A DNA stretch of 64,000 bases from Reichenbachiella agariperforans (GTDB taxonomy: Bacteria; Bacteroidota; Bacteroidia; Cytophagales; Cyclobacteriaceae): assembly GCF_900142205.1 (NCBI RefSeq), contig NZ_FRAA01000001.1, forward strand, positions 712,803 to 776,802, written 5' to 3'. A program made the position numbers and the translations under genes. The notes below the pieces were generated by a model. The model did not search any database. It saw only the letters and a list, made by a program, of their open reading frames with translations, and was not told where the DNA came from. Positions 8,601 through 64,000 of this stretch are shown piece by piece (position 1 is the first letter of the stretch; each line of letters opens with the position of its first letter).

Positions 8601-9093
8601 CAGTGACCGTTCCTACTGTTGATCCTTTGATTACAACGTTTACTCCAGGCAAACCAGTACCGTCGTCTTCTGATCTTACAGTACCTGTCACGACCAAATC
8701 CTGCTCGTAAAAAGACTCTGTTACTTGTGCTTTGGTACCCGCGGCATCCTCTACATGAATCGTTTCATTGATTCTTCTAAAATTCAACTGAGCCTCCTTG
8801 GCTAAGTATCGTAGACACTCGCCTAGTGTAACTTGGGACATTTCTGACTTGACCGAACGACTCACAGCTAACTGTCGATCATAGTGAAAATTGAGCCCTG
8901 TTTGCTCACTGATGGTCGTAAAGGTCTCTTCCAAATTGCCTTCCTCCATCTGTATCGTCACGTATATATCCTCTATGCTCTTGATGGCCTTTCCGTCCCA
9001 TGCATTTGCACTCGACATTAGTCCGCATAAAAGATATAAACCAATAAATATCGCCCTACATCGAAGAGGGATTACTAGTAATTTTGCTTTCAT
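5653..9093 (-). CDS. SusC/RagA-type TonB-dependent receptor with STN signalling domain
   Basis: 1146 residues. Order of domains: signal peptide (about 1-32); STN domain (about 46-115), the periplasmic part that talks to FecR-type anti-sigma factors; carboxypeptidase-like sandwich (about 134-205); the TonB-box region EEVVIVGYGEQKKETVVGAV; plug with GSRGANGVVIVTTKRG; and a beta-barrel ending in LGLNLTF. The STN domain and the adjacent sigma/FecR pair predict that ligand binding here induces the whole locus. It lies 109 bp after fecR and 12 bp before its SusD. Confidence 0.96.
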   Translation of the reverse strand: MKAKLLVIPLRCRAIFIGLYLLCGLMSSANAWDGKAIKSIEDIYVTIQMEEGNLEETFTTISEQTGLNFHYDRQLAVSRSVKSEMSQVTLGECLRYLAKEAQLNFRRINETIHVEDAAGTKAQVTESFYEQDLVVTGTVRSEDDGTGLPGVNVVIKGSTVGTVTDIDGNFRINVPSKESVLYFSFIGYIAQEALVGDQAVIDVVMKLDVTSLEEVVIVGYGEQKKETVVGAVSQTDAAVLERVAGVPNVSTALTGNLPGVITTASTGMPGDENPQIVIRGVSSWNGSQPLILVDGVERPEYFNTMDVGSVENISVLKDASATAVFGSRGANGVVIVTTKRGREGKAEITARVNTTAKIVSKLPGTLDSYSAIRVRNQAIENELSNNPGSWDFMIPQSTVDKYRYPADAAEAERYPNVDWQNELFKDYAMAYNANIGIRGGTEITKYFASIDYQNEGDLMKDANNNRGYDPGYSYNRLNFRSNLDFQLTPTTKLSTNLSGTYGVRKTPWGGGNEYPFWIAAYGNAPDAFIPRYSDGTWGFYEPNVQGGLNSVRILALSGVQYTTRAQMSTNFSLEQDLDFVLKGLKFTGTLAVDNQFVEIDRGVNDQYNAVQEKWINPQTGQTLYGQNFDAATRFDFYDQGASWSPTGGSVADWESQRRLYYQLRLNYDKTIAEKHNVGLMGLMSRQEDVLGSQIPRYREDWVFRATYNYDGKYSIEYNGAYNGSEKFGVDYRFAFFSSGGVNWMLSEENFMKGIPFLDVLKLRASYGEVGDDQVAGRFLFADTWNYQYESQLGTAGVTGEYSPYTWYRQTELGNPSVRWETVYKYNAGVDFGFFKGLISGSVDVFRDRREDILIGDGRAVPFYFGASPPVANLGEMQTQGYEVVLNIEKNITNSLRVWASMNMTHAKDEIINRDDPELLPEYQKQAGYQLGQARTHISADYYDTWDELYASTPHDNNDQAKIPGNRNILDYNADGIITAQDAAPFGFSGTPQNTYSTTVGFEWKGLSAFVQFYGVTNVTRQVVFTSLSGQLNRVYEEGSYWSEDNTNADQPMPRWLSTPNYNTGSRYMYDGSYLRLKNAEIAYRFSTDWINKIGLSSMRVYVNGNNLLLWTKMPDDRESNFAGNGWAAQGAYPTVKRVNLGLNLTF

Positions 9094-21437: not shown

Positions 21438-21560
21438 CTGCTTGCGCAAGCAGAAGGCCCACCTTGGGCAAGCAGACCGTTGCGCTTGCCCAAGCACAGG
21501 CTTCCCCTTGCGCAAGGGGAAGGCCGACCTTGCGCAAGGCCAAACCGCCGCTTGAAGTGT
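21438..21560. repeat. 22-bp-period array of 10-bp palindromes (CTTGCGCAAG type)
   Basis: Cores CTTGCGCAAG, CTTGGGCAAG, CTTGCCCAAG, CTTGCGCAAG and CTTGCGCAAG start at 21441, 21463, 21485, 21507 and 21529, a spacing of exactly 22 bp. A decayed sixth core (CTTGAAG) starts at 21551. Several cores extend into longer palindromes, the best being 22 bp perfect at 21501-21522. The small open frames across it are by-products of the repeat. The 22-bp period is about two turns of DNA, so protein binding on one face is possible. Confidence 0.8.
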
Positions 21561-21795
21561 TCCCAGTCTTCGGGTTCCTACTATTCAACTTATATGCCTT
21601 CATCGCACATTGTCTTCAAGCCAGTCAGGCCATGCTTACGGCAGGTAAACGCTTCTTTTTTCATGGCCAAAAAAGGACGCAAAAAGGCTAGAGACCAATA
21701 AACTCGCTACCGCTCAGACAGTATAATTTTCGATAACCTAGAATAAAGCAGATAGAAGATGATTTATAGTACTGATTAGTCGAACTCAGGTTCAT

Positions 21796-32346: not shown

Positions 32347-32354
32347 TAGTTTTG
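32347..32354 (+). promoter_or_regulatory. -7 element of the SRP RNA promoter
   Basis: TAGTTTTG fits the Bacteroidota -7 consensus TAnnTTTG and lies 5 bp before the predicted 5' end of the SRP RNA. A matching -33 TTG is not clear. Confidence 0.5.
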
Positions 32355-32358
32355 CAGC

Positions 32359-32450
32359 GGCAAATCGATACGACCAGCTCCTGTCGAACTCCCCCAGGGC
32401 CGGAAGGCAGCAAGGGTAGATAGTCGTAGCGGTGCGATGTTGGTTTGCCA
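32359..32450 (+). ncRNA. ffs: Signal recognition particle RNA, small bacterial type
   Basis: The conserved domain IV is intact: GGCCGGAAGGCAGCAAGGG with the GGAA tetraloop and the asymmetric A-rich internal loop that binds Ffh. The 5' end GGCAAATCG pairs with the 3' end GGTTTGCC, closing a single elongated hairpin of about 92 bases. A T-rich tract (TTTTTCTTTTC) follows as terminator. It directs signal-peptide-bearing ribosomes to the membrane together with Ffh. The next gene begins 38 bp later. Confidence 0.95.
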
Positions 32451-32488
32451 TTTTTCTTTTCTTTCAGATTACACCCCTTCCTTCTGAA

Positions 32489-56317: not shown

Positions 56318-56322
56318 CAGCA

Positions 56323-56441
56323 CTTATCAAGAAAGATCGAGGGACTGGGCCCGAAGACATCTTGGCAACATATCCATAGCCGCAATATTGGATGTTGTGC
56401 CAACTCCCATTCTAGATGCGAATATCTGGATATAAGATAGG
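56323..56441 (+). promoter_or_regulatory. SAM-I (S-box) riboswitch
   Basis: All core blocks of the SAM-I aptamer are present in order: CTTATC at the start (P1), GAGGGACTGG followed by GCCC, CTTGGCAAC (P3 side), GTGCCAACTCC, AGATG, and the closing ATAAG that pairs with the start. The ATG of the methionine synthase gene follows 51 bases later. No strong terminator hairpin is evident in between, so control may act on translation. When S-adenosylmethionine is plentiful it should repress methionine synthesis. Confidence 0.93.
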
Positions 56442-56491
56442 TATTCATCGAACGATATTTTTCTAGGTAAGTAGTTGATTAAACTATAGAT

Positions 56492-57484
56492 ATGAACATT
56501 AGAGATATTCTCAAGAGCAGAATATTGATATTGGATGGAGCCATGGGGACCATGATTCAGCGGTATCAATTGGAAGAAAAAGACTTCAGAAACGAAGAAC
56601 TAAAAGATCATCCCGTCCCTCTCAAAGGCAACAATGATTTGCTATCCATCACCCGGCCAGACATCATCAAAGCCATCTGCTCTGCCTATCTCGAAGCTGG
56701 TGCAGACATCATAGAGACCAACACCTTTGGGAGTACATGGGTGGCACAGGCTGATTATCAGCTAGAAGACTGGGTCTACCGTATCAACTACGAATCTGCC
56801 AAAATCGCCAAAGAAGTAACCGATGAATTCACAGCCAAAGACCCCAGCAAACCACGCTTTGTCGTAGGATCTATGGGACCTACCAACCGGCTGGCATCTA
56901 TGTCTCCAGACGTAAATAATCCAGGGTTTAGAGCCATCACTTACGATCAATTGTTGGAGGCATTTACCGAGCAGGCCAAGGCTCTACTTGACGGAGGTGC
57001 AGACCTCCTACTCGTGGAAACCATCACCGACACCCTCAACTCCAAAGCAGCACTGATGGCTATCGACCGCATAGCCGAAGCGCGCGGCATCAAGATACCG
57101 ATCATGGTATCAGGTACAATCACTGATGCAAGTGGTAGAATCCTATCAGGCCAAAACACAGAGGCCTTTTTGATCTCTGTATCACACTTAGACCTCCTCA
57201 GTGTAGGTCTCAACTGTGCACTCGGTGCGAGAGAATTGAAACCTTACCTCAGTACGCTATCAAGTAAGTCAACCTTCAACATCAGCGCACACCCTAACGC
57301 CGGACTACCCAACGAGTTTGGAGAGTATGATGAAACGCCTGAGGACATGGTCGATCAGATCAAAGAGTTCCTCGACGATGGACTGATCAACATCATCGGA
57401 GGCTGCTGTGGCACGACTCCTGAGCACATCAAGGCCATCGCAGAACTGGCTGCTAAATATGAACCGAGACTACTAACTCAGTGA
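56492..57484 (+). CDS. metH: Methionine synthase, homocysteine-binding module (split MetH, part 1)
   Basis: 330 residues that match only the first domain of cobalamin-dependent MetH: LDGAMGTMIQRYQLEEKDFR, then GADIIETNTFGST. The zinc-binding cysteines are seen at about residue 240 (GLNCALGA) and 302-303 (GGCCGTTPEH). This barrel activates homocysteine for methylation. The rest of the enzyme is a separate gene 98 bp downstream, so the two products must associate. It is controlled by the SAM riboswitch directly upstream. Confidence 0.95.
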   Translation: MNIRDILKSRILILDGAMGTMIQRYQLEEKDFRNEELKDHPVPLKGNNDLLSITRPDIIKAICSAYLEAGADIIETNTFGSTWVAQADYQLEDWVYRINYESAKIAKEVTDEFTAKDPSKPRFVVGSMGPTNRLASMSPDVNNPGFRAITYDQLLEAFTEQAKALLDGGADLLLVETITDTLNSKAALMAIDRIAEARGIKIPIMVSGTITDASGRILSGQNTEAFLISVSHLDLLSVGLNCALGARELKPYLSTLSSKSTFNISAHPNAGLPNEFGEYDETPEDMVDQIKEFLDDGLINIIGGCCGTTPEHIKAIAELAAKYEPRLLTQ

Positions 57485-57582
57485 TAACCCAGCTCTTTAG
57501 TCAAAACCTAGAGCCGTTTCAAAAAAAAGAATAAATCCATGGCATTGGGGACACCCAAAGACCATCGACTAAATAAAAATAT

Positions 57583-60312
57583 ATGGACTTAATCATTCAT
57601 CCCGATTACCCTGGCAAGTACCAATACAAGTGGCACGAATACGAGCCGATGAAACTCAGCGGATTAGAACCCCTAGTCGTTACACCTGACATGAACTTCA
57701 TCAACGTCGGCGAGCGTACCAATGTAACAGGCTCTAGGATGTTTCTTCGTCTCATCAAAGAAGAGAAATTCGAAGAAGCACTCGCTGTAGCACGCAACCA
57801 AGTCGAAGGAGGCGCGCAGATCATCGATGTAAACATGGATGAAGGGATGCTCGAAGGAGCTGAAACCATGACCAACTTCCTCAACCTGATGGCTTCTGAG
57901 CCAGATATTGCACGAGTACCGGTCATGATTGATTCGTCCAAGTGGGAAATCATCGAAGCGGGACTAAAATGTACCCAAGGTAAGTCTGTAGTCAACTCTA
58001 TCAGTCTCAAGGTCGGCGAAGAAGAATTCATCCGACAGGCCAAACTTGTCAAGCAGTACGGAGCAGCCGTAATCGTCATGGCCTTTGACGAAGATGGACA
58101 AGCCGACAACTATGAGCGTCGCGTCGAGATCGTCAAGCGATCTTATGAACTGATGGTTGGTCCAAAGATTAATTTCAAGCCAGAAGACATCATCTTTGAC
58201 CTCAACATCTTCCCTGTCGCTACAGGGATGGAAGAGCACAGGCAAAACGCCATGGACTTCTTTAAAGCGACACGTTGGGTAAGAGAAAACCTCCCTGCTG
58301 CACACGTCAGCGGTGGGGTGAGTAATGTCTCGTTCTCTTTTCGAGGCAACAACCCCGTACGTGAAGCCATGCATTCTGCATTTCTCTATCACGCCATCGG
58401 TCAAGGCATGGACATGGGGATCGTTAACCCTGCCATGTTGGAGATATACGACGACATCCCGAAAGATCTGCTAGAACATGTCGAGGACGTATTACTTGAC
58501 CGCAGAGATGACGCGACGGAGCGTTTATTAGACTTTGCAGAGTCCTTTATCGGTGCAGAAAAGAAAGAAAAGAAAAACGACGAATGGCGTTCTTTGCCAG
58601 TGGGCAAAAGAATCGAACACGCCCTTGTCAAAGGAATCGTGGAATTCATCGATGAGGATACCGAAGAAGCTCGCCAGTCGCTAGACAAGCCCCTACACGT
58701 CATCGAAGGTCCACTCATGGACGGCATGAATGTCGTAGGCGACCTGTTCGGCGAAGGAAAAATGTTCTTGCCTCAAGTAGTCAAAAGTGCCAGAGTTATG
58801 AAAAAGGCAGTGGCCTATTTGACTCCCTACCTCGAAGCAGAAAAAGCAGAAGGCGATGCTAAAAATGCCGGGACTGTCCTACTCGCTACTGTCAAAGGCG
58901 ATGTACACGATATTGGCAAAAACATCGTCGGAGTAGTCATGGCCTGCAACAACTACGAGATCATAGACATGGGCGTCATGGTCCCCAACGAAAAGATCCT
59001 CGCCAAAGCCAAAGAAGTCAATGCAGACATCATAGGCCTAAGTGGACTCATCACTCCGTCACTAGACGAAATGGTTGATTTTGCGAAGCTCCTCGAAAAA
59101 GAGGGCGCTAGCTACCCATTACTGATCGGTGGTGCGACTACTTCGCGTATTCACACAGCTGTCAAAGTAGACCCGTGCTATAGTGGCCCGGTGATCCACG
59201 TCCTCGATGCGTCACGGAGTGTACCTGTCGCAGGTGATCTCCTTAGCGGAAAGAAAGAGGCCTTTGTCGCCAAAACCAAACAAGAATACCTCGAAGCACG
59301 AGAAAATCATGCGGGGAGGACCAAGGATAAAAACTACATCAAGTGGCCAGAGGCGAAAGCCAATCACTTTCAGATTGACTGGGAGACCACTCCTATCACC
59401 GAGCCCAAGTTCATCGGCAACAAGACCTTCAACAACTATCCATTAGAAGAAATCAGAAAGTTCATCGACTGGACACCCTTCTTCCAGACGTGGATGCTCA
59501 AAGGCAAGTATCCTAAAATCCTACAAGACGAGGTGATCGGTACCGAGGCAACCAAGCTCTACGAAGATGCCAACAAGATGCTCGATGATGTGATCGCCAA
59601 AAGAAGCCTACAGGCCAACGGCGTGATCGGTATCTACCCAGCGATCAACACAAACGGAGATGACATAGAAATATCAGATCGCGAAGGAAAAGCAGTCACC
59701 ACTTTCCACTTTTTGCGTCAGCAAGGGAAGAAAGGAAAGAACATCGCCAATCTATCGCTGGCTGATTTTGTAGCGCCGAAAGCTTCAGGTCGCCAAGATT
59801 ACATGGGGGGCTTTGCCGTCACCACAGGTATCGGGATCGAAAAACTCATCGAGCAGTTCGAGAAAGATCATGACGACTACAATGTCATCATGATCAAAGC
59901 TGTAGCGGATCGATTGGCAGAGGCATTTGCCGAACTGATGCACGCCAAAGTCAGAAAAGAACTGTGGGCCTATGCCCCAGATGAATCGCTCGAAAACGAT
60001 GCGCTGATCTCAGAAAAATACAAAGGCATACGTCCTGCACCTGGCTACCCTGCCTGTCCAGACCATACCGAAAAGCCTATTCTATTTGATCTGCTCAATG
60101 CAGAAAAAGAAACAGGTATCATCCTGACTGAGTCTAACGCCATGTACCCAGCTTCATCCGTGAGTGGATTCTATTTCGCCAACGAGCATTCGAAATACTT
60201 CGGATTGGGGAAAATCGAAAAAGATCAAGTAAAAGACTATGCCGCGAGAAAAGGGATGACGCTAGAGGAAGCAGAAAAATGGCTGTCGCCAAATCTCGCT
60301 TATGATGCCTAG
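57583..60312 (+). CDS. metH: Methionine synthase, folate/cobalamin/reactivation modules (split MetH, part 2)
   Basis: 909 residues. Pterin-binding barrel ([23 protein letters not shown]-type loop at [13 protein letters not shown]), cap and cobalamin domain with the His-on motif DVHDIGKN (near 440) and [13 protein letters not shown], and the reactivation domain with [15 protein letters not shown] (near 815). It transfers the methyl group from 5-methyl-THF via cobalamin to homocysteine held by the separate first module. About 27 residues before the first barrel are not part of the usual family start. Confidence 0.96.
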
Positions 60313-60357
60313 TTTTGCCCTATTACCTATTAAAGAATAACGATTAACAAACAACCT

Positions 60358-61314
60358 ATGAAGGTTACCGAACATATTAAAAACGCCAACGGGAAGACAC
60401 TCTTTTCACTTGAGATCATCCCTCCCAAAAAAGGCGAAAACGTACAGACCATATTCAATCACCTCGATCCTTTGATGGAGTTCAATCCACCGTTTATCGA
60501 CGTGACCTACCACCGAGAAGAATACGTCTACAAAAAGCATCCGAGCGGGCTACTAGAAAAGAAAACAACCCGCAAGCGTCCAGGCACAGTAGGCATCTGT
60601 GCAGCGATCCGTCATCGCTATGATGTAGATCCAGTGCCGCATATCATATGTGGTGGTTTCTCTAAGGAAGAAACCGAAAACGCGCTAATCGATCTAGATT
60701 TCTTGGGGATAGACAATGTCCTTTTGCTACGTGGAGACGCTATCAAATCCGAAGGGAAATTCATCCCTCAGAAAGATGGCAACAACTATGCGATCGACCT
60801 ACTACATCAGGTCGATGGACTCAACAAAGGAGTCTACCTTGACGACAGTTTGGACGATCCTACACCGACTGATTTTTGTATTGGTGTAGCGGGTTATCCT
60901 GAGAAACACTTCGAAGCACCCAACCTAGAAATGGATCTTGACTTCTTGAAACAGAAAGTAGAAGCGGGTGCAGAATACATCGTGACTCAGATGTTCTTTG
61001 ACAATGAGAAATACTTTGAGTTTGTAGATCATTGCCGTGAGATGGGGATCAATGTACCAATTATCCCAGGGCTTAAGCCCATTGCTACGAAAGCCCAATC
61101 CACCATACTACCGAGTATTTTTCACATCGACCTGCCTGTAGAACTAAGTGAAGCACTGCAGCAATGCAAGGACAATAAACAAGCAAAAGAAATAGGGATA
61201 GAATGGGGTATCAAACAATCCAAAGAGCTCATGGAGCGAGGTGTACCTGTACTCCACTATTACTCGATGGGCAAATCAACGAGTGTCCAAAAAATAGCTG
61301 AGGCAGTTTTTTAG
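60358..61314 (+). CDS. metF: 5,10-methylenetetrahydrofolate reductase
   Basis: 318 residues, a single TIM barrel. FSLEIIPPKKGENVQTIF carries the catalytic Glu, LLRGDAIKSEG the FAD/folate loop and ITQMFF-type segment (YIVTQMFFDNEKYFEFV) the substrate strand. It makes the 5-methyl-THF used by the methionine synthase encoded 45 bp upstream, so riboswitch, split metH and metF form one methionine operon. Length is slightly above the bacterial norm because of an insertion (NNYAIDLLHQVDGL region). Confidence 0.96.
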   Translation: MKVTEHIKNANGKTLFSLEIIPPKKGENVQTIFNHLDPLMEFNPPFIDVTYHREEYVYKKHPSGLLEKKTTRKRPGTVGICAAIRHRYDVDPVPHIICGGFSKEETENALIDLDFLGIDNVLLLRGDAIKSEGKFIPQKDGNNYAIDLLHQVDGLNKGVYLDDSLDDPTPTDFCIGVAGYPEKHFEAPNLEMDLDFLKQKVEAGAEYIVTQMFFDNEKYFEFVDHCREMGINVPIIPGLKPIATKAQSTILPSIFHIDLPVELSEALQQCKDNKQAKEIGIEWGIKQSKELMERGVPVLHYYSMGKSTSVQKIAEAVF

Positions 61315-61353: not shown

Positions 61354-62406
61354 CTAGCAGACCGCAGTCTCTAGCAAGGTCAGTGTACCTTTTTTTGAAT
61401 CCATCTTCGCTTCTATTCCTATTGGAAGTGTACTATTGTCATCGATATGTCCAATCGGTAGCCCATAAATCACTGGCACGTTCAACTCGCCCAAACGATC
61501 CATTAGCACTTTGGTGAGCGTCACGTAGTGATCATCATCTACTCCACCAGATTTAGCCCTGCAGCTCGCAAACACGCCTAATACCACGCCAGCACACGCA
61601 TCCAGCTTACCACTGTTCAGCAACTGGGTCAACATCCGATCCACGTGATAAAGGGACTCTCCTACCTCTTCCAGAAAGACGATTTTGTTTGTGTAGTCCA
61701 CATCATACGGCGTGCCCAGCATGGAACATACGATACTCAGATTCCCTCCTATCAGCTGCCCCTTCGCTACTCCATCTACCAAACGCATGTACTGGTAGGA
61801 TTCGGCTGACTTTTCTTCCCAAGTCAGTGGTCGCTTGATGACCGCACGATCACCCGCCATCAATACCCGCTGCGCATCGGTAGTGGTATGGATAGAAAAT
61901 TCAGAAGAAGCTACTGGCCCATGAAAACACACCAAACCGGTCTGTTGATAGATGGCGTAATGCAACGCTGTAATATCACTAAACCCCAACAAGACCTTAG
62001 GATTCCTTTTGATCAAATCATAATCAAGCATCTGTAACAGTCTACCCGTTCCATATCCGCCACGCGCACAGACTATACCGTCCACGTCAGGATTGCCAAA
62101 CATCTCATGAAGGTCATCGACACGTTGCTGATCAGTCCCCGCAACAAAACCCGTTCTCACATTGTAGTTCTTAGATTTGACGACCTTAAAGCCTAGTGCC
62201 TTCATGTTGGCTTCAGCCTTAGCTTCCGCATCCCCGACTAAAGCACTCCCTGGCGTGACCAATCCAACGGTATCCCCCACTGCCAAGGCTTTAGGCTTAA
62301 TGATGGGCAACTCACCCTGCTGAGACCTGGCTTCTACACTTTGGTAAGGCAACACACTCGCTCCAGCCAACACTGCAGAACGCCCTATAAACTTTCTTCG
62401 ATTCAT
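61354..62406 (-). CDS. ldcA: LD-carboxypeptidase (peptidase family S66)
   Basis: 350 residues. The N-terminus has a twin-arginine-like start (MNRRKFIGRSAVLAGASVLP), so it is probably exported folded. The family core is intact: VGLVTPGSALV, the nucleophile elbow VCARGGYGTGRLL, GFSDITALHYAIYQQTGLVCFHGP, and the Glu/His end region IVFLEEVGE and GLPIGHIDD. LdcA removes the terminal D-Ala from murein tetrapeptides in cell-wall recycling, which pairs functionally with Mpl at 39277. It may end within a long-range hairpin shared with metF. Confidence 0.93.
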   Translation of the reverse strand: MNRRKFIGRSAVLAGASVLPYQSVEARSQQGELPIIKPKALAVGDTVGLVTPGSALVGDAEAKAEANMKALGFKVVKSKNYNVRTGFVAGTDQQRVDDLHEMFGNPDVDGIVCARGGYGTGRLLQMLDYDLIKRNPKVLLGFSDITALHYAIYQQTGLVCFHGPVASSEFSIHTTTDAQRVLMAGDRAVIKRPLTWEEKSAESYQYMRLVDGVAKGQLIGGNLSIVCSMLGTPYDVDYTNKIVFLEEVGESLYHVDRMLTQLLNSGKLDACAGVVLGVFASCRAKSGGVDDDHYVTLTKVLMDRLGELNVPVIYGLPIGHIDDNSTLPIGIEAKMDSKKGTLTLLETAVC

Positions 62407-62690: not shown

Positions 62691-63046
62691 GTCCAGTTTT
62701 TAAGCGGAAAGAGCAAAAATAATGGCTAAGTAGTAGCGCCTAAAACAAAGCATGCTCATCTAGTTGGCATTTTAAAATGGCGAGTACCCCGTCAAACCAA
62801 CGTAGCCTCTAGCGCAGCTATATACGCAATGCTCCACTTCGTCAACACAGCCTACCATCTTATGCCCATATGCAGGGAAATCGGAACGTTCTAAAAAAGC
62901 ACATCAGAAGATGATCCTGCAGTGTTTTGTCCTCCAAATGGTATCCTACTCTCCTCTCCTCCGCTATACCCTCCCACCAGCAAAGGCAGGGTAAAGTCGA
63001 CACTACAGTACTAAGCACATCGAATCACCTTACTTGATATACTTTT
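62691..63046. other. Gene-free stretch, no element recognised
   Basis: No open frame with protein-like sequence, no RNA gene and no strong hairpin seen. Composition is mixed. It may be decayed insertion-sequence flank. Confidence 0.4.
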
Positions 63047-63134
63047 GATATATATCTAAATTGATTTAGATATATATCTTTTTTACTTTACATATATATC
63101 TTTTTATATTTAGATATATATCTAAATGGTAGAA
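63047..63134. repeat. 22-bp-period array of AT-rich palindromes (GATATATATC type)
   Basis: GATATATATC, GATATATATC, CATATATATC and GATATATATC start at 63047, 63069, 63091 and 63113, exactly 22 bp apart. Linkers are T/A rich and mostly end in TTTA. The fourth core lies in a 20-bp perfect palindrome (63108-63127). The layout resembles operator clusters or iterons. It lies between LD-carboxypeptidase and an acetyltransferase, 150 bp after the latter's stop. Confidence 0.8.
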
Positions 63135-63169
63135 CCACCTGTAGTGTCAAGCCACAAGACAGGTGGTTC
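63132..63169. terminator. 11-bp-stem hairpin next to the 22-bp array
   Basis: GAACCACCTGT (63132-63142) pairs perfectly with ACAGGTGGTTC (63159-63169), loop 16 bases. It directly follows the palindrome array and lies 119 bp past the acetyltransferase stop. On the minus strand the AT-rich array follows it, so it may terminate that gene's transcript. Confidence 0.5.
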
Positions 63170-63287: not shown

Positions 63288-64000
63288 CTACCCGTCATCT
63301 GTCAAGCGGTAGTTTTTGATTTTGAACTCCTCTGCAAAGCCTAGTTTGAGATAGAGCCCTTTGCCCATCTCAGAGGCTTGCAGTGTGACGTATTGGCTCT
63401 TGTCCTCTGTAGCGAGGTGGAGCAACTGGTTCATCAGTTGGTTTGCTAATCCCTTTCGCCTACCCGCTGGTGCTATGCCCATGGCATGGATTCCTGTCAC
63501 CTCTCCGGTCTGATAAGTGATCGCCGTACCTATGGCTTGGGTTTGATAGTGGGCGATGTAGTAATTGATCTCAACATGCGTATGCATGATTAAATCAGGG
63601 TGGATTTCATACCCAAAAGCAGCGAAAAAGAGCTTGCTCCATGTGATCGCCTCTTCTCTCGTCGAGACCCGCGTGATTTTCAAATCGATTTGTTCTTCAT
63701 AGGGCTCATGCAGTTTCAGAGACATCCCCGTTTGCTCAAAAAGTTTGACAAAGCCATTTTGCGTTAATAGTTGCTCCGAATCACTGCCATAGATATCCCA
63801 ATAGGGCACAATGAGATTGGGGGATTCAGCGAAAACATGTTCTTTGGCTAGCTCTAGTGATTCCTGATCCAAATCATCATGAAACCACAGTCGATTGGGC
63901 CACTGCAAATCGTCACATGCTACATAATTGAACCTTGACGAAGAAACAAAGCTGCTTTTGAAACGTCCCGCCTCTGTCCACAAAGAAGTCAGGTTATGTA
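63288..64000 (-). CDS. GNAT-family N-acetyltransferase, N-terminus beyond window
   Basis: The frame stays open to the right edge without an ATG in the last 17 bases, and the first possible start is a TTG at 63983, so the gene is probably cut by the window. The visible 237 residues contain a complete C-terminal GNAT fold: the strand VTGIHAMGIAPAGRRKGLANQLMNQLL holds the acetyl-CoA loop (Q/RxxGxG/A type), and YVTLQASEMGKGLYLKLGFAEEF the end of the fold. Substrate unknown. Confidence 0.85.
   Translation of the reverse strand, partial: HNLTSLWTEAGRFKSSFVSSSRFNYVACDDLQWPNRLWFHDDLDQESLELAKEHVFAESPNLIVPYWDIYGSDSEQLLTQNGFVKLFEQTGMSLKLHEPYEEQIDLKITRVSTREEAITWSKLFFAAFGYEIHPDLIMHTHVEINYYIAHYQTQAIGTAITYQTGEVTGIHAMGIAPAGRRKGLANQLMNQLLHLATEDKSQYVTLQASEMGKGLYLKLGFAEEFKIKNYRLTDDG

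Follow-up and report, generated by a model that had tools for sequence, protein, structure and literature searches.

Palindrome arrays of unrelated sequence share a 22-bp grid in the genome of Reichenbachiella agariperforans

Short palindromes of several unrelated sequences recur at 22-bp intervals in the genome of Reichenbachiella agariperforans. Two such arrays are present in the window, i.e., the whole stretch of 64,000 nucleotides analysed here (RefSeq assembly GCF_900142205.1, contig NZ_FRAA01000001.1, positions 712,803 to 776,802), and the one at 63 kb, an intergenic minisatellite of small size, belongs to the many arrays that follow a common 22-bp grid in this genome (G000; the close relative with arrays is referred to as G001). 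In G000, at least four palindrome words obey this grid. Repeats are usually catalogued by sequence; here the geometry stays while the sequence changes, so that similarity searches miss the relation. The arrays are a variant of dispersed repeats that bear minisatellites, in which the multi-word 22-bp grid appears to be new. No description of a 22-bp palindrome grid was found in the literature searched, a scope that excludes subscription papers and preprints.

The array at 63 kb consists of GATATATATC-type dyads starting at 63047, 63069, 63091 and 63113, with an exact 22-bp period and linkers of exactly 12 bp, and was recorded by Tandem Repeats Finder with a period of 22, 3.9 copies and a score of 91. 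The dyad cores of units 1 (63047..63056), 2 (63069..63078) and 4 (63113..63122) are GATATATATC, the last of these lying within a 20-bp perfect palindrome (63108-63127), and the core of unit 3 (63091..63100) is CATATATATC. Four 10-bp palindromes 22 bp apart had been described here in an earlier reading made from the sequence only, and this description was borne out, the third palindrome having one broken pair. The three 12-bp linkers are TAAATTGATTTA (63057..63068), TTTTTTACTTTA (63079..63090) and TTTTTATATTTA (63101..63112). Adjoining the array is a 38-bp inverted repeat, GAACCACCTGT...ACAGGTGGTTC (63132..63169), which may form a hairpin. The array is also flanked by the arms of a 10-bp inverted repeat, GACACTACAG on the left (62999..63008) and CTGTAGTGTC on the right (63139..63148), which may be due to chance.

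The array occupies a non-coding gap. On one side is an S66 peptidase gene on the minus strand (61354-62406), on the other a GNAT acetyltransferase gene, likewise on the minus strand (63288-63983 as a first-pass open reading frame, which is longer in locus L061). The body of the array (63043..63123) is homologous to, and matches at 86-88%, the arrays that A elements carry at other places in the genome, and no similarity to the fetched loci was found beyond 63043-63123. In seven relatives, a search upstream of the S66 gene turned up no related DNA, so that the window locus has no orthologous site among them. For an empty-site comparison bearing on mobility, a 97% protein match was present in genome G003, but the upstream DNA there is unrelated.

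The second array of the window (21440..21539) comprises five CTTGNNCAAG units with a 22-bp period, the 12-bp dyads starting at 21440, 21462, 21484, 21506 and 21528. When taken as 10-bp units, these start at 21441, 21463, 21485, 21507 and 21529, with a centre that is non-palindromic in two of the five. The array of unrelated sequence and identical period that the sequence-only reading had placed at 21441 is, then, real. Approximately 75 bp past it lies a partial copy of a MITE-like dispersed repeat, B (21614..21792, + strand), which ends in TCGAACTCAGGT and has 23 genome-wide matches at E <= 0.1, some of them partial.

Two such arrays had been held unlikely to arise by chance. In dinucleotide shuffles of the window, 22 of 200 replicates contained dyad chains of at least four units (four of five pairs formed, spacing free between 12 and 44), the mean being 0.115 chain starts; the same test on the real window gave four chain starts at spacing 22 and two at 21. 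Under the stricter demand of three perfect 10-bp palindromes in a row, the window had none and one of the 200 shuffles had some. Given these shuffle counts, AT-rich dyad chains alone are only moderately rare, and the stronger point is that two unrelated words occur at one spacing.

A pattern search of the genome for GATATATATC returned 28 forward and 30 reverse matches, compared with one forward and four reverse for a reversed-pattern control. These define seven GATATATATC arrays, that of the window included, and a single stray match with three mismatches lies outside them. Sampled stretches added arrays of CTTGCGCAAG, GTAAGCTTAC and ACCYGCGCRGGT, all at 22 bp, as well as a weaker second ACCYGCGCRGGT array in L285. 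A genome-wide scan for further 22-bp arrays, which had been proposed as a check on the sequence-only reading, was in this way answered in the affirmative, both for the AT word and for others.

Six of the seven AT arrays (L062 to L067) share common flanks and are termed dispersed A elements, with 4, 4, 8, 6, 7 and 4 units, respectively; among the fetched loci the window copy is without those flanks. Inverted copies of ACTCAGGTTA mark the boundaries of the A element in most cases. To judge by eye, there is a small hairpin on either side of the array, and the arrays themselves form a 44-bp higher-order repeat made up of two 22-bp dyad units. Broken core variants such as GATTTATATC and GATATATACC are common. 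The arrays examined in G000 and G001 are intergenic and multi-copy, and no open reading frame of threshold length was found to cover them; short open reading frames of 86-132 aa overlap the arrays in several named loci i.e., L114, L117, L118, L127 and L138.

The A elements are embedded among MITE-like repeats B and C, the ends of which are ACCTGAGTTCGA/TCGAACTCAGGT. Seven copies of repeat B with both ends measure 229-238 bp. As the B end ACCTGAGTTCGA agrees with the printed end of MITE239, ACGTGAGTTCGA, at 11 of 12 letters (PMC4596501, Table 2), repeat B is probably an IS5-type MITE. No ACCTGAGTTCGA-type ends, allowing up to one mismatch, were found in the 7 kb of L061 around the window array. 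A second S66 peptidase (G000:C8:834635-835687), which is 55% identical to the one beside the window array, was observed approximately 67 bp from a complete B repeat.

The spacing was also examined by scans that are blind to the word. Chains of at least three 12-bp dyads were sought at spacings 12-44 in 464 kb of the genome, the window included, yielding three chains at 22 (two of which are the window's own arrays), two at 44 and none at any other spacing, as against a mean of 0.05 chains per spacing in five block shuffles (0.20 at spacing 22, i.e., one chain). A second 400 kb of the genome yielded two chains at 22 and one at 44. The five 22-bp chains of both scans, the window's two included, are made of GATATATATC, CTTGNNCAAG (twice), ACCYGCGCRGGT and GTAAGCTTAC; the sampled stretches L170 and L191 hold arrays already known from word searches. 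When pairs of similar 12-bp dyads were counted over 864 kb at spacings 12-60, there were 15 at 22, 13 at 44 and no more than two elsewhere. The 15 pairs at 22 represent seven arrays, three of them known beforehand, and nine of the pairs fall in four arrays that were new to the scan.

Similar scans were applied to other genomes, where chains give a weaker signal than pairs. The 400 kb of G001 searched held four dyad pairs at 22, four at 44 and at most one at other spacings, together with one chain each at spacings 12, 16, 22 and 31. Across the named loci, whose genomes had themselves been found via a 22-bp pair, there were 20 chains at 22, 10 at 44, three at 33, two at 18 and one each at 19, 20 and 24. 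The chain scan detected none in six known G001 loci and none in two chosen stretches of G123, which can probably be attributed to the strict dyad threshold. A further 38 genomes belonging to the genus, the family or the order, each sampled as a single stretch of no more than 20 kb (674 kb in total), gave no pair at 22; the arrays are therefore lineage-limited and dispensable. In twenty of these 38 stretches, taken together, a single weak chain was seen at 22 and a single chain at each of the spacings 14, 24, 25, 41 and 42, the other 18 had no chain at any spacing, and there was none in 50 kb of E. coli. Some lineages, then, show the 22-bp grid strongly, and in others it was not seen.

To allow the spacing to vary, the AT word was searched as ATATATATC N{0,30} GATATATA in 15 genomes, 12 of which had been chosen for holding a 22-bp pair; G123, taken from the family scan, gave no match. 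A gap of 12, i.e., a 22-bp period, was found in 44 of the 46 forward matches, the two exceptions having gaps of 13 and 30. In the remaining two genomes, which had come by neither of these routes, the 22-bp period accounted for eight of eight matches (G000) and three of four (G001). The GC word, searched as GCGCRGGT N{2,30} ACCYGCGC in eight genomes of the genus, gave a 22-bp period in all eight matches, which form four arrays, two being inverted copies, and so do not count as eight independent events. Matches within one array, and copies of the A element, are likewise not independent. G001 carries ACCCGCGCGGCT and GTCTGCGCAGAC arrays besides those of GATATATATC, and in its L192 array the first units are one base out of phase. 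The inverted-copy GC-word arrays of G001, seen at G001:C1:3328325-3328394 and 3473373-3473442, i.e., 145 kb apart and with the same linkers, are a trace of copying or exchange.

Neither the AT nor the GC word was matched in six of the eight genomes of the genus. The spacing, whose conservation in relatives had been proposed as a test, is accordingly kept in the close relative and in distant Bacteroidota and not in those six genomes. With up to two mismatches, the AT word matched 18 of 295 genomes of the family, 14 of them with one pair, and the reversed control matched four. An exact scan for the AT word in 84,980 species genomes returned 26 stretches from 18 genomes, of which 20 were labelled Bacteroidota, four another phylum and two had no label; several of the stretches have only two units. 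One virus contig carries two units.

Comparison of units within arrays showed greater likeness among cores than among linkers in 14 of the 15 arrays compared, with linker length constant; because the arrays had been found via their cores or dyads, core identity is raised and this result favoured. Eleven of the 15 had a core identity of 0.76-1.00 with a linker identity of 0.39-0.64, and linker identity reached 0.71 in L064. The linkers of L127 and L138, from the Bacteroidaceae MAG RUI084, are nearly as alike as the cores, the units being recent near-identical copies, and those of Parabacteroides L223 are slightly more alike than the cores. Eight copies of an Elizabethkingia array, from four of six genomes searched and four of them not preselected by exact match, kept the 22-bp spacing in eight of eight cases, with one of 20 core columns variable versus six of 12 linker columns (Fisher p = 0.006). 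The hairpin beside these arrays looks less conserved than the cores. The Elizabethkingia loci L115, L135 and L137 consist of two-unit arrays in tandem segments approximately 400-490 bp apart, and a LuxR-type response regulator gene adjoins the arrays of L115 and L137, the two loci for which a neighbour was scanned.

Different words were also found on one grid within a single locus. In L278, three CTTGCGCAAG dyads are followed by GTAAGCTTAC on the same grid, the distance from 8802 to 8890 being 88 bp, i.e., four times 22. In L127, GAAGCTTC and GTATATAC units continue the phase of the GATATATATC units before them, and further on, after a 2-bp shift, come GTAGCTAC units. Mere copying of a single founder repeat does not readily account for different words in phase. 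The RUI084 loci L127, L136 and L138 were each seen to be composite, with sub-arrays of different palindromes in succession at 22 bp and up to 11 units in one chain.

As the dyads are conserved, the distance between them fixed and the linkers freer, we infer that the grid may be a row of candidate dimer-binding sites about two helical turns apart; 22 bp is approximately two turns of B-DNA, and exactly two at 11 bp per turn. Such sites might be filled side by side by a DNA-binding protein, or by a family of paralogues with different words, while slippage or unequal exchange would alter the number of units and array copies would spread together with MITE-like elements. On the strength of the geometry, we give this explanation of the grid, a lattice of dimer-binding sites, a standing just short of even. 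More tentatively, the arrays may be chromosomal palindrome grids with replaceable words and a conserved geometry of one dyad per 22 bp. Their reader would be an as yet unrecognised family of DNA-binding proteins in Bacteroidota, lining up along the grid in the service of chromosome organisation, defence or element spread. No binding protein or partner gene for the arrays was found. The idea that one period shared by unrelated palindromes reflects a common process or same-face binding of a dimer, with which the sequence-only reading began, survived the tests proposed for it, although the spacing is not kept genus-wide. If the grid is read by a protein, the array DNA would be a ready bait for finding it.

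The strongest alternative, which we nonetheless consider rather unlikely, is a neutral minisatellite carried in MITE-like elements, as in BrickBuilt, whose 22-bp period would be inherited from a founder and whose unit number would change by slippage, with no reader. Minisatellite MITEs do exist in Bacteroidota, BrickBuilt being the precedent in the available part of its description (PMC4596501). Consistent with neutrality are the fact that all but one of the seven AT arrays belong to dispersed elements, each with 4 to 8 units, the near-identical recent unit copies in RUI084, the same linkers in the two inverted GC-word copies of G001 and the absence of the arrays from most of the genus. A single founder, however, does not easily explain unrelated words at one period, and it is equally hard to reconcile with different words in phase within one array or with linkers scrambled at constant length beside conserved cores. 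Should the arrays prove neutral, they would illustrate cleanly how words turn over in bacterial minisatellites while the period is preserved; either outcome would show what MITE-borne minisatellites do.

The BrickBuilt MITE of Porphyromonas gingivalis (Klein et al., 2015; PMC4596501) is the nearest described system, as judged from the part of that paper available. It resembles the arrays reported here in belonging to Bacteroidota, in being dispersed and intergenic, in having tandem short repeats between shared flanks and a variable number of units, and in its IS5-like terminal repeats, with the qualification that the IS5-like ends in G000 are those of the neighbouring repeats B and C. The BrickBuilt unit is 23 nt, whereas a 22-bp unit and not a 23-nt one was found here, and among the fetched loci the window copy lacks the shared flanks that six of the seven AT arrays possess. 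In the available text, stem-loops are predicted from the repeats, dyad symmetry is mentioned in passing and 22-nt repeats in strain W83 are cited, and a row of dyads with free linkers and several unrelated words on one period is not described (PMC4596501).

The BOX elements of Streptococcus pneumoniae, according to the part of the source available (PMC3049150), consist of internal repeats, variable in number, that are enclosed by two end modules, are MITE-like and are often nested with other repeats, and the A elements have the same layout. This arrangement of end modules and a variable internal repeat was found in the six A elements, with their 4 to 8 units, and the window copy is without the modules. 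BOX differs in belonging to another phylum and the A arrays in forming a 44-bp higher-order repeat by eye, the comparison being one of layout; a dyad grid with free linkers is not described in that part of the source (PMC3049150). REP/BIME sequences are likewise dispersed extragenic palindromes, but in the available part of their description REPs are palindromes of 20-40 bp, most with a tag at one end, as opposed to the 10-12-bp dyads in period-locked rows seen here (PMC3733652).

A BOX- or BIME-like role as structured nucleic acid, i.e., hairpins in transcribed RNA or single-stranded DNA that would, for example, stabilise or cut transcripts, appears improbable. RNA folding gave z-scores of -6.6 and -8.2 for the window array and -9.7 with the neighbouring hairpin, values that do not discriminate because any row of palindromes folds well. 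A strong inverted repeat does abut the window array, and the arms of the window's CTTGNNCAAG array are extended by different, mostly complementary letters (self 0.70 versus 0.31-0.44). Similarly, nested partners are favoured in the MAG RGIG6920 (0.62 versus 0.44 for self in L230, and 0.56 versus 0.25 in L218). Against this, over 20 arrays, one of which (L136) was taken one base out of register, flank complementarity was 0.495 within the unit, 0.490 for nested partners and 0.467 both for neighbours and for other combinations. Compensatory change was not seen in the AT word; in the ACC word it was weak and concerned one pair (P = 0.048), six L192 units having been placed in their best register, a choice that leans towards pairing. 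The array region had no Rfam match at the gathering score, the best weak match having E = 0.58. A specific RNA fold thus receives little support from flank pairing (towards which three single arrays lean), compensation or Rfam.

A local operator cluster or replication-origin iterons, both raised by the sequence-only reading on account of a 22-bp same-face spacing like that of plasmid iterons, can be set aside as very improbable, since the array copies occur at scattered sites next to unrelated genes (of the 12 genes flanking the six A elements, 10 were scanned), array positions in G001 spread over the chromosome, no initiator gene was found among the array neighbours scanned, and GC skew, the check proposed for an origin, falls to approximately zero at 58-60 kb and neither changes sign nor switches near the 63-kb array, the coarse skew of G001 and of contig C8 (stretches either side) likewise giving no support. 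In plasmid iterons and multi-site dimer operators, sites lie about two helical turns apart on one face of the DNA. The arrays differ from these in being dispersed over the chromosome, in using several words and in having no neighbouring initiator seen; a cluster at an origin beside an initiator gene was not found. For comparison with CRISPR arrays, which consist of repeats with unique acquired spacers together with cas genes, the units here are only 22 bp, with linkers of 10-12 bp.

Two structured RNAs were noted elsewhere in the window. A Bacteroidales small SRP RNA gene is present at 32351-32454. A SAM riboswitch (56321-56443, 60.4 bits) lies upstream of the homocysteine S-methyltransferase, methionine synthase and methylenetetrahydrofolate reductase genes (56492-61314), which form a methionine cluster.
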